From Streptomyces lienomycini (GTDB lineage: Bacteria; Actinomycetota; Actinomycetes; Streptomycetales; Streptomycetaceae): 64,000 nt of DNA. The stretch is taken from positions 3,782,001 to 3,846,000 of the forward strand of contig NZ_CP116257.1 in NCBI RefSeq assembly GCF_027947595.1, written 5' to 3'. Positions 12,172 through 48,750 of this stretch are shown here, piece by piece. The translations under genes were made by a program, and so were the position numbers. Numbering within the stretch: position 1 is the first letter of the stretch; each line of letters begins with the position of its first letter. The notes beneath the pieces are model-generated. The model ran no database searches. It was given only the letters and a program-made list of their open reading frames with translations, and had not been told where the DNA came from.

Positions 12172-12705
12172 GACATATCGCCGCGAAGGTGACTATAGCG
12201 ACAGAGGGGGATTCGGAACCGGTGATCAGCGGTGTGTTCGGAGCGCGATGGTGAAAGCCGTCGTGCGGGCGTCGACGGCGCCCGCGAGGCCGGCCGGTTC
12301 ACACGCCGCGTAGGCCATCCCGAGCCCGCCCGGGCTGCGTCCCCGTAGGGAGCGGTGGGACCCGTGCCGCATCCGGTCTGCTCCGCGGCCGACGGGGCGA
12401 GCCGCCCACACCGGCGGGGACGACCCCGGCCCGCCACGGGTCGCAAGACGCCTCGGACCCGAGGCAGCAGGCCGTGGTGCCGAGGGAATGGGCCGGTGTC
12501 CACCGGCTGACTGCGGCCGCCATGGTGCGCGTTCGCGGGTCTTTACAGTTTTGCGGCGTCTCTGTTAAAAACCCTCGCCGCCGCAGGCCTTGATGAGCCG
12601 TGGGGCCTCGGCCAGAGTCGGGGCGCGGCGAACATCCCCCCAACCTTCGCCGCCGGGCAAGTGCCGCCACCTGTGCGAACTTGCCTGCTACCGGAAGGAA
12701 TCAGT
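12172..12705. other. 534-bp intergenic region, protease promoter side
   Basis: No convincing gene is present; the ORFs seen here lack coding bias and ribosome binding sites. The right part holds a putative promoter at 12543-12572. The left part is ordinary GC-rich spacer with small AT pockets (TATCGCCG, GACTATAGCGACAGAG) that could carry promoters for the MFS gene. Confidence 0.5.
12543..12572 (+). promoter_or_regulatory. putative sigma-70-like promoter for secreted protease
   Basis: TTTACA at 12543-12548 and TAAAAA at 12567-12572 are separated by 18 bp, about 135 bp upstream of the protease start. It is one of the few AT-rich spots in the region. Confidence 0.4.
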
Positions 12706-43389: not shown

Positions 43390-43756
43390 CGGGCTCTCCT
43401 GGGCGGGGGGTGAGAAACACTCTTGGAGTGCCTTCCCTGACAGCCGGTAAACCGGACGACAGTCACTCATTCGGCCATCCCCGGCAGAGGCCCGCGCGGG
43501 ACCGGTGATCAGGGCGCTCATCCGCGGGGCACGACGGCTTCCCCATTCACCTGTCCGAGTGGCCACTCCGAGTTCCACGGCAGCCCCAGGGGCGGGCCAC
43601 CCCAACCGAACAGGCCGAGGGGAGCGTCGTGCACCTCCGACAGCCGGCAGTCGGGCAACCGGTCCGAAGCGCGTGGCCGCGTACGGCCGATTTCGACCGG
43701 TGAGGGCGCCGCGTGGCGCCACCGCACGGAGAAGGAGGCTTAACGGCGTAGGTAGT
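43390..43756. other. intergenic region between remnant and PLP cassette
   Basis: An open frame continues upstream of the remnant through much of this stretch but lacks coding character. The divergent promoters of the racemase pair and of the PLP cassette must lie here. No repeat or RNA element is evident apart from the Zur-like site at its right end. Confidence 0.4.
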
Positions 43757-43771
43757 TGGAAACGATTATCA
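43757..43771 (+). promoter_or_regulatory. Zur-box-like operator 1 (TGGAAACGATTATCA)
   Basis: This 15-bp semi-palindrome resembles actinobacterial zinc-uptake-regulator boxes (AT-rich, TGrAAA-CG-TTwTCA). It ends 27 bp before the first gene of the PLP cassette. The complement of the site at 47911-47925 is the same sequence with one central substitution. Assignment to Zur is from the motif as I know it, not from a scan. Confidence 0.65.
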
Positions 43772-43797
43772 CGAACTGATCATCGAGGGGAGACGCG

Positions 43798-45339
43798 ATG
43801 ATCGACCGACGCGGGAGGTACTTCGTGAAGGACGCGCCCTTGTACCTGAGGCCGCGGATCGACCCGCCGCTCGCTTCGTTGCTGGAGGACGCGCCGTTCC
43901 TGCACTCCCTGGCCGACGCACTCGGATCACCGCTGAACGTGCTGCTCCCGGAGGTCGTCGCGGGCAACGCGGAACGCTTCCGGTCCGTCTACCGGCGTCA
44001 TCATCTCGCCGGGCGGGTGTACTTCGCCCACAAGGCGAACCGTTCCAGTGCCCTCGTGCGCAGACTCGCGGCCTGCGACCCGGCCGCCGTCGGTGTCGAC
44101 GTGGCCTCCCTGGAGGAACTGCGGCACGCGCTGGGCTGCGGCTTCACCGGAGACCGGGTGATGGCCACCGGCCCGAAGGACGCCGAGTTCCTGTGGCTGG
44201 CCGCCCGGGTCGGTGCCACGGTGAACCTCGACTCGCTCACCGAACTGGATCAACTGGCCGGTCTCGTACGGAAGTACCGACTGGCCCGGACCGACGTGCT
44301 GGTGCGTCTGTCCGGATTCGAGTCGGACACCGGCCCCGGCGGCGCGGGCACACGGCTGCTGTCGCGCCGCAGCCGCTTCGGCACGCCGGCCGCCGAGGCG
44401 GACGGGCTCTGGAGGGCGCTGGAACGACATGCGGACAGCGTCGAACTCGTCGGTCTGGCCTATCACCTGGACACCACGGGGCTGGAGGAGAAGGGGCGGG
44501 CCCTGGAACGCTGTGTGCTGCTCATGGACGAGTGCCGCGCCCGGGGCCTCGCACCGCGCGCGGTGGACATCGGCGGCGGCTTCGGGGTCGGCTACGTCGA
44601 GGACGCCGGCGAGTGGCAGCGCTGGACGACCGCGCTGAGCGAGGCCGTCCTCGGCATCCGCCCGCCCCTGACCTGGCGCGGCCACGGGTACGGCCTGCGC
44701 AACGAGGCCGGCACGGTGCGCGGTACCGCCGCCCTCTACCCCGCGCACCGGCCCACCGCGGGCCCCGACTACCTCGACGCCCTCCTCTCCCGCTCGGCGC
44801 CCGTCCTCGGCCGGCCCCCCGCCACGCTGCTCCTGGAGCACCTCCACGACCTCTTCATCGAACCCGGCCGCGCCCTCGTCGACCAGTGCGGACTGTCGCT
44901 GGCGCGGGTGCTGGAGGTGCGGCCCGCGGGCGACGCCCCCGACCGGTACCTGGTGCGCCTCGGCATGAACGCCGGCGACGTGAGCCTGGAGGAGCACGGG
45001 GTCCTCGTCGACCCCGTCCTGCTGCCGCGCGGCGACCCCGGGCACGGACCGACGGACGACGCCCCGGTGGGGGTCCACCTCGTCGGGAACCTCTGCCTGG
45101 AGGCCGACCTGATCACCCGGCGCCTGGTGTTCCTCCCCCGCCTGCCCCGGCCGGGAGACCTGCTGGCCTTCGTCAACACCGCTGGATACGTCATGGACTT
45201 CCACGCCCACCACGCGCAACACCAGCCGTCCGCACGGACGGTCGCGGTCACGCGGGACGACGGGGCGGGCGGGCCCTGGCGCTGGTGCCCGGACGAGAAC
45301 TACTGGCCGCTCACACACCCGCAGGGAGTGCCGTCATGA
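43798..45339 (+). CDS. Y4yA-type PLP-dependent decarboxylase
   Basis: This 513-aa fold-III PLP enzyme is related to diaminopimelate and ornithine decarboxylases. The PLP lysine is K79 in VYFAHKANRSSALV. GVDVASLEELRHAL, TGPKDAEFLWLA and the glycine-rich phosphate loop VDIGGGFGVGY follow. C-terminal elements include LHDLFIEPGRALVDQCG and LVGNLCLEADLITRRLVFLP. The length and C-terminus match the Y4yA subgroup, which occurs in siderophore-type loci rather than lysine biosynthesis. GGGAG precedes the ATG. It is the first gene of a three-gene overlapping operon preceded by a Zur-like box. Confidence 0.88.
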   Translation: MIDRRGRYFVKDAPLYLRPRIDPPLASLLEDAPFLHSLADALGSPLNVLLPEVVAGNAERFRSVYRRHHLAGRVYFAHKANRSSALVRRLAACDPAAVGVDVASLEELRHALGCGFTGDRVMATGPKDAEFLWLAARVGATVNLDSLTELDQLAGLVRKYRLARTDVLVRLSGFESDTGPGGAGTRLLSRRSRFGTPAAEADGLWRALERHADSVELVGLAYHLDTTGLEEKGRALERCVLLMDECRARGLAPRAVDIGGGFGVGYVEDAGEWQRWTTALSEAVLGIRPPLTWRGHGYGLRNEAGTVRGTAALYPAHRPTAGPDYLDALLSRSAPVLGRPPATLLLEHLHDLFIEPGRALVDQCGLSLARVLEVRPAGDAPDRYLVRLGMNAGDVSLEEHGVLVDPVLLPRGDPGHGPTDDAPVGVHLVGNLCLEADLITRRLVFLPRLPRPGDLLAFVNTAGYVMDFHAHHAQHQPSARTVAVTRDDGAGGPWRWCPDENYWPLTHPQGVPS

Positions 45340-46673
45340 GGTACGACAGCATCACGGAGGCCATCGGCAACACGCCGCTGGTCCGCATCGACCCGTCCGT
45401 GCACGGGCTGCGCCACATCGACCTCTACGCGAAGCTGGAGATGCTCAACCCGTTCGGGTCCGTCAAGGACCGGCCGGCCTGGCACATGGCCCGCCCCCAT
45501 CTGGAGGGCGCGGCCGGGGGCGACGGGACGGTCGTGGAGCTGTCCAGCGGCAACACCGCCAAGGCGCTCGCGCTGCTGGCCGGAATGCACGGGCTGCGGT
45601 TCAAGAGCGTGACCAACCGGATGCGTGTGCCCGAGATCAAGGAACTGCTCCTGCTCCTCGGCGCGGAGATCGAGGAACTGCCCGGACAGAGCGAGTGTCT
45701 CGACCCCACCGACACGGACGACCCGCTCACCCGCTTCCACCAGGCACTCTCCGAGCCCGGCAACACCTATCTGCACACCGACCAGTACTTCAACCCGCGC
45801 AACGTCGAGGCGCACGCGGCCGGGACGGGGCCCGAGATCGTCAAGGACCTCGACGGCCGGGCACCGGACTGGTTCGTGGCCTGCGTCGGCACGGCCGGCT
45901 CCTCCACAGGCGTCGCCCGCGTCCTGCGCGAGCACGACGCCGACGTACGCGTGCTCGGCCTGGTCGCCGACAAGTCCGACTTCATCCCCGGCATCCGCAC
46001 CATCGACGAGGTGCACCAGGTCGGCCTGTTCGATCCCGCGACCTACGACGTGCTGGCCCCGGTCACCTCGCAGCAGGCCATCGACGGCATGGTCACCCTC
46101 ATCCGCCGCTGCGGACTGCTGTCGGGACCGACCGGCGGCGCCGCCTACCAGGGCGCCGTTCACCAGTTGGCGTCCGTCGACGCCGAGTTGGCGGGCACCG
46201 GCCGCCGCGAGAGCGCCGTGTTCATCGTGTGCGACCGGGCCGAGAGCTATCTGAGCTACGTGCGTCAACGCCGCCCCGAGCTGCTGGGCAAGATGCGGCG
46301 CGGGCAGTCGGCGTCGTCCCTCACCGACGACGAGGTCAGGGCGCGGGCCCGGGTGGTCGGCGTCGACGACGCACGGCGCTGGATCGCGGAGGGGGACCCG
46401 CGTCCCCTGGTCGTTGACCTCCGCGGCCCGCACGCCTACGCCGCCCTGCACATCGAGGGCTCGGTCAACATCGTCGACGAACTCTTCGAGGAACTGGTCC
46501 GCGGCGGACTGCCGTTCAGCAAACGCACCCCGGTCCTGCTGGCCTGCCCGGTGGGGGAGAAGTCGCTGCGGCACGCCGCTCTGCTGTCCCGCATGGGCCA
46601 CCCGGACGTCAGGAGCCTGGCGGGCGGGATCGTGGCCTGGCGGGACGCCGGCGCACCGCTGGTGAGGGAGTGA
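45336..46673 (+). CDS. cysteine-synthase-like PLP enzyme fused to rhodanese domain
   Basis: The 445-aa protein overlaps the previous stop by 4 bp (ATGA). Residues 1-~320 are a fold-II cysteine synthase/SbnA-like enzyme: PLP lysine K44 in NPFGSVKDRPAW, substrate loop ELSSGNTAKALAL and phosphate loop VGTAGSSTGVARVL. Residues ~340-445 are a rhodanese domain (LVVDLRGPHAYAALHIEGSVNI) with active Cys in LLACPVGEKSLRHA. The fusion suggests that a persulfide carried on the rhodanese Cys, or released by it, feeds a beta-replacement reaction (inference). Similar genes sit beside Y4yA in other bacteria. Confidence 0.9.
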   Translation: MRYDSITEAIGNTPLVRIDPSVHGLRHIDLYAKLEMLNPFGSVKDRPAWHMARPHLEGAAGGDGTVVELSSGNTAKALALLAGMHGLRFKSVTNRMRVPEIKELLLLLGAEIEELPGQSECLDPTDTDDPLTRFHQALSEPGNTYLHTDQYFNPRNVEAHAAGTGPEIVKDLDGRAPDWFVACVGTAGSSTGVARVLREHDADVRVLGLVADKSDFIPGIRTIDEVHQVGLFDPATYDVLAPVTSQQAIDGMVTLIRRCGLLSGPTGGAAYQGAVHQLASVDAELAGTGRRESAVFIVCDRAESYLSYVRQRRPELLGKMRRGQSASSLTDDEVRARARVVGVDDARRWIAEGDPRPLVVDLRGPHAYAALHIEGSVNIVDELFEELVRGGLPFSKRTPVLLACPVGEKSLRHAALLSRMGHPDVRSLAGGIVAWRDAGAPLVRE

Positions 46674-47902
46674 ACACCATGCCGGACGACGCGGGCCCCG
46701 AGCGGGTACCCGACCAGGACGGCGACTGGCAGCGGAAGCTGCGGACGCAGTTCCCGATCGTCACCGCGCACCCGGACCTGACGTATCTGGACAGCGCGGC
46801 GACCTCGCAGAAACCGCGGGCCGTCCTCGAAGCCGTGGAAACCTACCTCACCACCTCCAACGCCAACGCCGGCCGCGGCACCTACCCCTGGGCCAACCGC
46901 ACCACGGAACTGGTGGAGCGGACCCGTGAACGCGTCAAGGAGTTCCTGGGCGACGGGCGACCGCGGCGCTCCACCGTCCACTTCACCAGCGGCACCACCG
47001 AGGGCCTGCGCACCGTCGCCCGCGACTGGCTCGTGCCCTATCTCGCCGACGGCGACGAGATCCTCGTCCCGTACGCCGACCACCGGGCCAACCTGGAACC
47101 CTGGCTCGAGGCCCGACGCCTGCTCGCCGAACGCGGTGTCGGCGTACGGGTGCGGGCCCTGCCCCGGCAGGAGTCCTCCGGCGACTACGACCACCGCGCG
47201 CTCGCCGACGTGGTCGGCCCCCGCACCCGGTTCGTCGCGGCGACCCACGTCCACCACGTCTACGGCGGCGACATGAACGTGCACCGCCTGCGCGCGGCCG
47301 TCGGCCCCGACGTGCCGATCTGCCTGGACGCCGCGCAGAGCGTCGGCCACCTGCCCGTCCGCGTCGACGACCCGGACCTCGACGTCGACTTCGTCGTCTT
47401 CTCCGGCCACAAGGCGCTGGCGCTGCCCGGCACCGGAGCGGTCTGGGCACGCAACACCCGTGGACCGGAACTGAGACCCGAGGGCTGGCAGGGCACCCCC
47501 AACACCGTCGGAGTCGTGTCGCTGCTCGCGGCGCTCGACTGGCTGGACGAGGCGGGCCCCGAACGCATCGACCGCCATCTCACCCGGCTGGCCACGCGCC
47601 TGACCGACCGGCTGCACCGCCTGGACCGCTACGAGATCCTCGGCTGCCCGGCCGGCCTCGCCGCCGACAGCGCGCTGCCCGCCGCCCAGCGACGGCACGG
47701 CATCGTCACCTTCCGGCACCGCGACATCCCCTCCGACGACCTGGGCTTCATCCTCTACAGCCACGGCTTCATGGTCCGGGCCGACAGCCTCTGCCAGGCC
47801 GGTGCGGACGACCGGGACGGATCCGTGCGGGTCAGCCTGCACGTCTACAACACACAGGAGGAGATCGATCACCTGCTCGCCGTTCTGGGCTCACTGGAGT
47901 GA
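46670..47902 (+). CDS. SufS-like cysteine desulfurase (class V aminotransferase fold)
   Basis: This 410-aa PLP enzyme overlaps the preceding gene by 4 bp (GTGA). LTYLDSAATSQKPRAVLEAV, GRGTYPWANRTTELVERTRERV, HFTSGTTEGL and the PLP lysine K248 in FSGHKALALPGTGAV follow the SufS pattern. The SufS catalytic Cys loop aligns with VRADSLCQAGADD (C374), and the end SVRVSLHVYNTQEEIDHLL is also SufS-like. It probably abstracts sulfur from cysteine as a persulfide for the adjacent rhodanese fusion rather than for general Fe-S assembly, since no suf genes are nearby. Confidence 0.88.
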   Translation: MNTMPDDAGPERVPDQDGDWQRKLRTQFPIVTAHPDLTYLDSAATSQKPRAVLEAVETYLTTSNANAGRGTYPWANRTTELVERTRERVKEFLGDGRPRRSTVHFTSGTTEGLRTVARDWLVPYLADGDEILVPYADHRANLEPWLEARRLLAERGVGVRVRALPRQESSGDYDHRALADVVGPRTRFVAATHVHHVYGGDMNVHRLRAAVGPDVPICLDAAQSVGHLPVRVDDPDLDVDFVVFSGHKALALPGTGAVWARNTRGPELRPEGWQGTPNTVGVVSLLAALDWLDEAGPERIDRHLTRLATRLTDRLHRLDRYEILGCPAGLAADSALPAAQRRHGIVTFRHRDIPSDDLGFILYSHGFMVRADSLCQAGADDRDGSVRVSLHVYNTQEEIDHLLAVLGSLE

Positions 47903-47910
47903 ACGGCTAT

Positions 47911-47925
47911 TGATAACCGTTTCCA
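47911..47925 (-). promoter_or_regulatory. Zur-box-like operator 2
   Basis: On the plus strand TGATAACCGTTTCCA; its complement TGGAAACGGTTATCA differs from operator 1 at a single position. It lies 9 bp after the desulfurase stop codon and 58 bp before the methyltransferase start, next to a possible -10 (TAGATT, 47930-47935). Confidence 0.65.
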
Positions 47926-47982
47926 CCTGTAGATTGCGTGGTAGTCACGACGGGTGAGAGACGGACGAGGTGACACGGCCGG

Positions 47983-48750
47983 ATGGGCGTGAGTATGGGA
48001 ACGGGCAGCATGTGGGTGGAGCGCTGGGAGCGGCAGCAGCAGCGTTACGCCGTGGACCGTGAGGAGCGGTTCGCGGTGATCGCGGACGTCACGGAGCACC
48101 TCTGCGCCGGACGCGACCGGCCGCTCCTGCTCGACCTGGGCTGCGGCCCCGGCTCCCTGTCCGTCCGGCTCGCCCGGCGCCTGCCGCGGGCGGAGATCGT
48201 CGCCGTCGACATGGACCCCGTACTGCTGGAGCTCGGACGTACCCACCACTCGGACTCCGCCCGGTACGTGGACGCGGTGATCGGCGAGGACGGCTGGACG
48301 GACGCGCTGGAGCTGGACCGCACCGTGGACGCCGCCGTCTCGACCACCGCCCTGCACTACCTTCCCGCGGCCGTTCTGCTGCGCACCTACCGGGGCCTCG
48401 CCGACCTCCTCCGTCCCGGCGGCGCGCTGGTCAACGGGGACCACTTCCCTCCGGACGACTCGCCCTGCTCGGACCTGACCGCCCACGTGGGGCGCCGCCG
48501 GGCCGAGCGGACCGGCGCACACGGGCACGCGGACGAGGACTGGGAGTCGTGGTGGCGGGCCGCGGCCGCCGACCCGGAGCTGACCGGCCTGTTCGAGCAG
48601 CGCGAGAGAAGCCGCTCGTCCTCGGGCGGCGGCAACCGGCACCTCTCCGTGGACGCCCACACCGAACTGCTCCATCGCGCGGGGTTCCGCCACGTCACAC
48701 CCGTGTGGCAGGTCGGGGACAGTTGCGTCCTGGTCGCCCTGAAGGGCTGA
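47983..48750 (+). CDS. class I SAM-dependent methyltransferase of the PLP cassette
   Basis: The 255-aa enzyme has motif I LLLDLGCGPGSLSVRLARRL, acidic loop IVAVDMDPVLLELG and LLRPGGALVNGDHFPPDD. The N-terminal WVERWERQQQRYAVDREERF is typical of small-molecule methyltransferases. GAGGTG lies upstream of ATG 47983; a second in-frame ATG is at 47995. The Zur-like box in front suggests it is co-regulated with the PLP cassette, where it may methylate the product (N-, O- or S-). Confidence 0.87.
   Translation: MGVSMGTGSMWVERWERQQQRYAVDREERFAVIADVTEHLCAGRDRPLLLDLGCGPGSLSVRLARRLPRAEIVAVDMDPVLLELGRTHHSDSARYVDAVIGEDGWTDALELDRTVDAAVSTTALHYLPAAVLLRTYRGLADLLRPGGALVNGDHFPPDDSPCSDLTAHVGRRRAERTGAHGHADEDWESWWRAAAADPELTGLFEQRERSRSSSGGGNRHLSVDAHTELLHRAGFRHVTPVWQVGDSCVLVALKG

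Follow-up and report, generated by a model that had tools for sequence, protein, structure and literature searches.

The window, by which the whole analysed stretch of 64,000 nucleotides from Streptomyces lienomycini is meant, contains a cassette of four genes together with two palindromic sites resembling Zur boxes. The features of the cassette are as follows:

43757–43771, forward strand: Zur-like 7-1-7 palindrome before the PLP operon, TGGAAACGATTATCA (exact genome match)
43798–45339, forward strand: P0001 (P1), Y4yA-type fold-III PLP decarboxylase-like enzyme (Pfam Orn_Arg_deC_N, NCBI homologue name)
45336–46673, forward strand: P0002 (P2), fusion of a CysM-like PLP domain (residues 6–300) and a rhodanese domain (345–437) (Pfam PALP, Rhodanese)
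46670–47902, forward strand: P0003 (P3), SufS-like class V PLP enzyme (Pfam Aminotran_5, alignment to Bacillus subtilis SufS)
47911–47925, reverse strand: Zur-like palindrome before the methyltransferase gene, TGGAAACGGTTATCA (exact genome match)
47930–47935, forward strand: TAGATT, probable −10 hexamer 4 bp past the methyltransferase box (offset kept in relatives)
47983–48750, forward strand: P0004, class I SAM-dependent methyltransferase (Pfam Methyltransf_25)

The gene coordinates bear out the arrangement of four genes, all on the forward strand, which was described in an earlier note on this DNA, and both junctions among the first three genes are indeed overlaps of 4 bp. The two nearly identical 15-bp sites reported there, the second one inverted, were both recovered exactly in place. 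Because a GGGAGG followed by a GTG at 43825 is kept in relatives, the sequence suggests that the true start of P0001 may be this GTG, 27 bp downstream of 43798.

NCBI itself applies the name Y4yA, used already in the earlier note, to close homologues of P0001. For residue counts, aligned rows below 70 % of the length were left out, so that 72 (P1), 81 (P2) and 69 (P3) of 81 rows remain. The lysine K79 of P0001 is present in all 72 rows, and C433, E435 and D437 are also conserved among the aligned relatives. In P0002 the lysine K44, the arginine R221 and the rhodanese cysteine C404 are each found in 81/81 rows, and P0003 possesses K248 in 69/69 and both C375 and R387 in 68/69 rows (one gap). 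The three catalytic lysines and the rhodanese cysteine are thus present as the earlier note has them and kept in relatives; the desulfurase-type cysteine named there exists as well, but it is C375 and not C374. That the PLP lysines, the rhodanese cysteine and the desulfurase-type cysteine and arginine are invariant or nearly so speaks for working enzymes.

P0003 shows the hallmarks of SufS when aligned to the B. subtilis protein, namely the PLP lysine, the catalytic cysteine and the C-terminal arginine, and reaches 244.3 bits against the NCBIfam SufS model TIGR01979, below the curated cut-off of 475.1. P0002 reaches the Pfam cut-off for PALP and scores below the cut-offs of both the CysK/CysM model TIGR01136 (166.4 bits; cut-off 344.15) and the model of the 2,3-diaminopropionate synthase SbnA, TIGR03945 (136.5 bits; cut-off 349.95). 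Its rhodanese domain (PF00581) lies with 56.2 bits above the cut-off of 22.2 and has the active-site cysteine C404. The nearest PDB match of P0002 is CysM of Mycobacterium tuberculosis, which is annotated as O-phosphoserine sulfhydrylase too, and the invariant R221 (81/81) aligns to the arginine of this enzyme which marks the use of O-phosphoserine. In B. subtilis SufS a histidine swaps a zinc ligand with SufU, and the residue of P0003 aligned to it is never a histidine in 68 rows; a rhodanese as sulfur acceptor is therefore reasonable.

The Zur motif of Streptomyces coelicolor, derived from ChIP-chip data, is likewise a 7-1-7 palindrome, tGaNNatSatNNtCa (excerpt of PMC5472717). In the window three matches to the cassette sites occur at up to three mismatches, where 0.21 are expected; the third, at 12214, has three mismatches. 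The pattern TGRAAAYGRTTWTCA has just three exact matches in the 7.86-Mb genome, two of them at the cassette, and 24 strand hits at up to two mismatches, with three sites counted on both strands, while the reversed pattern used as a control had none in the whole genome at this threshold. Six sites differ by one mismatch at most. Apart from the two at the cassette, one belongs to a pair before a gene reading as znuA, one lies between genes reading as divergent ABC-transporter genes, one before a gene reading as a bL32 protein free of cysteine and one before the gene of an AMP-binding enzyme; among the two-mismatch sites examined, some precede the gene of a family-5 solute-binding protein or lie by a gene pair reading as bL28/uS14. 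The labels znuA (in this genome and in L156/L159), ABC genes, bL32, bL28, bS18 and AztD-like were given by reading translations only. The methyltransferase box is identical in 14 of 15 positions to a site before the gene reading as znuA. Known Zur targets of S. coelicolor comprise ZnuABC, a COG0523 protein, rpmB2, rpmE2, rpmF2, rpmG2, rpsN2 and rpsR2 (excerpt of PMC6103462). A scan with promoter and terminator consensus sequences gave no match. The third exact site, TGGAAATGATTATCA (L003:1501-1521, about 4112873 in this genome), overlaps a second near-match, and the AMP-binding enzyme following it (L165:4967-6631) appears to be a siderophore-type ligase; the site may belong to a siderophore cluster under Zur control.

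For a comparison among relatives, a species-genome collection was scanned, which yielded 183 confirmed relatives of P0002; the best 80, ranked by P0002 similarity, were examined, and because of this ranking decayed cassettes are under-represented. The gene calls behind the box counts and the neighbourhood survey come from a custom GC3 script, which at times picks antisense frames. A methyltransferase box with at least 13 of 15 matching positions exists in 75 of 81 loci (the window and the best 80 of 183), and in the remaining six it reaches 12/15 at best. A score of 13/15 or more is attained by just 11 of 3458 random windows and, in these same loci, by 22 of 781 upstream regions belonging to other genes. 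In 63 of the 75 boxed loci the distance from the box to a TANNNT motif downstream is exactly 4 bp, which places the box where a repressor would block the methyltransferase promoter.

Upstream of the Y4yA gene, a box of at least 13/15 within 250 bp was found in just 11 of 78 evaluable loci. In the window, in L009–L012 and, in the other orientation, in L058 it lies at most 60 bp from the start used, and in the remaining five 120–220 bp upstream. An intact box at exactly the position seen in the window is restricted to the window and L009–L012, its four nearest relatives, and most other relatives have a half-site only. The idea that all relatives share Zur control of the PLP operon was thus rejected: of the two proposed Zur boxes, the one before the methyltransferase gene proved to be conserved, whereas the one before the PLP operon is intact in the window's clade only. 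A few relatives carry other boxes upstream of the PLP operon, some of them common to znuA-like or Fur-like genes. Relatives with half a Zur box only also have a separate conserved element before the Y4yA gene, GGCTTAG ... TGTA (43720–43760 in the window), which is perhaps a promoter or another operator.

Genes of zinc starvation recur in the neighbourhood of the cassette, namely paralogues of uS14, bL28, bL32 and bS18, a ZigA-like GTPase (518.7 bits, below the cut-off of 600), Fur-family regulators and ZnuA-like proteins. Flanks reaching up to 10 kb to either side of P0002 contain one or more such genes in 31 of 80 loci, or in 29 without the AztD-like label; two or more of these families occur in 26 of the 80. 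The only Pfam match of the AztD-like protein is a sub-threshold PQQ_2. Distances were taken from 57 of the 68 P0002-positive genomes; the 11 left out are mostly highly fragmented. In 11 of the 57 genomes, against about 0.27 expected, the uS14 paralogue (59 copies) is found at most 20 kb from the cassette, on either side, and the ZigA-like gene (40 entries, omitting one of two fragments of a G666 gene) in 9 of 57 against about 0.18, both expectations treating genomes as independent, which their relatedness contradicts. Two boxes are common to the PLP operon and a divergent ZnuA-like gene in L069 and L079. The PLP operon of L058 faces a boxed Fur-family gene, past which there is a ZnuA-like gene that is boxed as well. 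In L009 the gene for a salicylate synthase, 1 kb upstream, has a box, and the methyltransferase remnants of L156 and L159 lie about 3–5 kb from a boxed gene reading as znuA. The window's own 64 kb contain none of the sought zinc genes in a tblastn search with the same queries.

The control by zinc through Zur proposed in the earlier note is strongly supported by the match to the znuA site and the Zur motif, the conserved methyltransferase box and the recurrent zinc-starvation neighbours. The boxes are unlikely to have arisen by chance. Judged from these sites, zinc control is very likely for the methyltransferase and likely for the PLP operon in the window's clade. The core GAAACG resembles half-sites of LacI-family proteins, and the sites might accordingly be operators of such a repressor or of another regulator. 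This is very improbable, given the identity of 14 of 15 positions with the site before znuA, the retention of the box in 75/81 loci against its rarity in random windows and in other upstream regions, and the odd 7-1-7 symmetry, which is the same as that of the Zur motif in the excerpt of PMC5472717; a LacI-type operator in particular was rejected because of the symmetry and the match to the znuA site.

The synteny count proposed in the earlier note showed the four genes in the same order in 80/80 loci (best 80 of 183), some of them cut by contig ends or partial; a P0004 match lies at the expected place in all 80, two being partial. The methyltransferase is found about 2.8 kb further on in L053 and 8.5 kb from the triad, with its box retained, in L154. 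Within the genus, 68 of 295 sampled genomes have P0002 and 227 lack it; it is found in 5 of 396 genomes of a phylum sample, with a remoter form in 10 of 296 of a class sample. Close relatives of P0002 exist in S. ambofaciens and S. rochei. The methyltransferase is present in 44 of 46 P0002-positive against 8 of 153 P0002-negative genomes, and among these eight are contig edges, fragments and also paralogues with identities of about 44–56 %; the 199 genomes of this and the importer search were taken as a subset of the 295 from their coinciding handles. Degraded cassettes exist too: P0002 is gone in L155 and in pieces in L142 and L126, and L156 and L159 retain a broken methyltransferase alone. 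A larger conserved cluster was rejected, as open reading frames of 21 loci and the window, compared with the 80 loci, gave no further gene common to all. Spread by plasmids was rejected as well, with only 2 hits in 72,556 plasmid records, both from Streptomyces. Downstream of the methyltransferase several loci have a small His-rich protein, e.g. L016:13718-14020(+); about 30 loci have at this place an open frame that is possibly antisense.

The earlier statement that no transporter is present holds within the cassette, but a candidate importer exists elsewhere in the genome. In L016 a boxed, divergent gene for the family-5 solute-binding protein of an ABC importer adjoins the cassette; its product matches nickel-binding and, more weakly, staphylopine-metal-binding models, all below their cut-offs. 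The relative in the present genome, 51 % identical, has a Zur-like site of 13/15 before its gene:

L164:2943-4538 (this genome, about 2856442): gene of the family-5 solute-binding protein

A 14/15 box precedes 20 of 20 sampled family members (17 close, 3 remoter; 88 genomes have a match). Close relatives of the importer (at least 73 % identity) are present in 33 of 199 genomes, 17 of which also have the cassette, compared with 29 of the 166 genomes lacking a close importer (odds ratio 5.0 with Fisher p 8e-5, uncorrected for phylogeny). As 16 of the 33 close-importer genomes have no cassette and 29 of the 46 cassette genomes no close importer, the link is partial, and the importer is a plausible partner of the cassette.

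Taken together, the cassette looks like a variant of Zur-controlled specialised metabolism and suggests that Streptomyces possess a pathway for scavenging or sparing zinc which has not been described so far. We tentatively favour, at a little under an even chance, a zinc-starvation pathway for a small sulfur metabolite, most likely a zincophore-like zinc ligand, and we infer its chemistry, product, zinc binding and importer role from the genes. Zinc-loaded Zur would repress the methyltransferase promoter and, in the window's clade, also the PLP operon, and zinc shortage would lift this repression. The SufS-like enzyme would then pass a persulfide from a thiol amino acid to the rhodanese cysteine, and the CysM-like domain would form aminoacrylate, probably from O-phosphoserine, to which the sulfur would be added. 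Decarboxylation of the sulfur amino acid could be carried out by the Y4yA enzyme and the final, zinc-gated step by the methyltransferase. The zinc complex may return via the family-5 (nickel/opine-type) ABC importer, whose genes have Zur-like boxes. Drawn in this way, however, the relay could be a futile cysteine cycle unless one substrate differs from cysteine. That all this constitutes a new class, i.e. a synthetase-free sulfur zinc ligand made by a three-enzyme PLP/rhodanese relay with zinc-gated methylation and uptake by a Zur-boxed family-5 importer, is possible though doubtful, since the 29 of 46 cassette genomes without a close importer lower the rating of a ligand taken up in this manner.

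The main rival, which we consider rather unlikely, is a zinc-sparing sulfur relay, in which the cassette replaces zinc-dependent sulfur handling in zinc shortage. In Gram-positive bacteria SufS passes sulfur to the zinc protein SufU, and a SufS-like enzyme delivering its sulfur to a rhodanese that is fused to a CysM would need neither SufU nor a JAB peptidase. This would agree with the missing histidine at the SufU-exchange position, with the likeness of P0002 to the M. tuberculosis O-phosphoserine sulfhydrylase and with neighbours that are often zinc-sparing ribosomal paralogues, and actinobacterial cysteine-synthase (CysM) operons include a JAB peptidase (excerpt of PMC1779556). Such a relay leaves the decarboxylase and the methyltransferase unexplained, the box of the latter being the best conserved one, and P0002 is missing from most genomes of the genus (227/295). 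Also unlikely is a sulfur metabolite with another role, such as an antimetabolite, a signal or a thiol buffer, whose PLP operon is constitutive and only its methylation zinc-switched. The wide conservation of the methyltransferase box alone, the half-sites in a separate region upstream of most PLP operons and the ability of the methyltransferase to stand apart from the triad (L154) would fit here, but what argues against it is that zinc-starvation genes recur nearby and that several lineages have boxes in front of the PLP operon.

The favoured zinc-ligand pathway has relatives among Zur-controlled metallophores, which include coelibactin of S. coelicolor, ethylenediamine-disuccinate (EDDS) of Amycolatopsis japonicum and pseudopaline of Pseudomonas aeruginosa (excerpt of PMC6103462). 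Common to them, as far as that excerpt goes, and to the cassette are boxed biosynthetic genes near or among zinc-acquisition genes and an expected small product. Unlike these clusters the cassette has neither a synthetase nor an exporter, and its PLP/rhodanese/desulfurase-like set is not described for them in the excerpt of PMC6103462. A cysteine-synthase-like enzyme adjoining a Y4yA-type enzyme is found in the rhizobial y4xP/y4yA pair as well (excerpt of PMC3973906). P0002 differs from this pair and from SbnA/SbnH by its rhodanese domain, its score below the SbnA cut-off and the additional SufS-like enzyme. The same adjacency is known from SbnA/SbnH of staphyloferrin B. With staphylopine/Cnt opine metallophores the cassette would share a family-5 ABC importer as plausible partner and a metal-regulated promoter; in contrast to them, no gene resembling an opine or nicotianamine synthase is among the four, and the importer reaches just 61.5 bits against CntA, far below the cut-off of 800. 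The CysM/CysO/Mec system of M. tuberculosis resembles it in a CysM-type enzyme with the invariant arginine and in protein-carried sulfur, but here the carrier would be the fused rhodanese, and neither a CysO-like nor a JAB gene is among the four. The four-gene cassette is not named in the titles and abstracts searched, in which few subscription journals are covered. Few actinomycete metabolites of zinc starvation are known, with coelibactin and EDDS named in the excerpt of PMC6103462. If the favoured pathway or the sparing relay is true, the cassette would represent a way of acquiring or sparing zinc that is based on sulfur and whose key gene exists in 68 of the 295 genus genomes. A search for the product can start from a defined set of genes, a candidate importer and zinc starvation as the growth condition.

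Some relatives lie outside Streptomyces. G050 and G235 were taken as Nocardia because one protein is 92 % identical to Nocardia proteins. Locus L123 (G050) contains the triad at 58–67 % identity with three boxes, next to a Fur-family gene, an MFS transporter, a flavin reductase and two methyltransferases, of which the one adjoining the triad has marginal similarity to P0004. L124 and L125 have a remoter operon (36–45 %) plus an HMA-domain protein, and in these two and in L141, which belongs to another family, the triad occurs without P0004 and without a box at the cut-off used. The HMA-domain protein of about 430 residues is encoded between the SufS-like and the Y4yA genes (L124:5025-6311(-), L125:11566-12900(-)); its C-terminal part is modelled as an Atx1-like metal-binding domain, and its N-terminal part has no Pfam match. 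It has no tblastn match in the 80 loci, and the close homologues listed come from Nocardia. The Fur-family gene of L123 (L123:1959-2407(-)) has a perfect Zur-type palindrome at its start and possibly encodes a second Zur that acts on the cassette.
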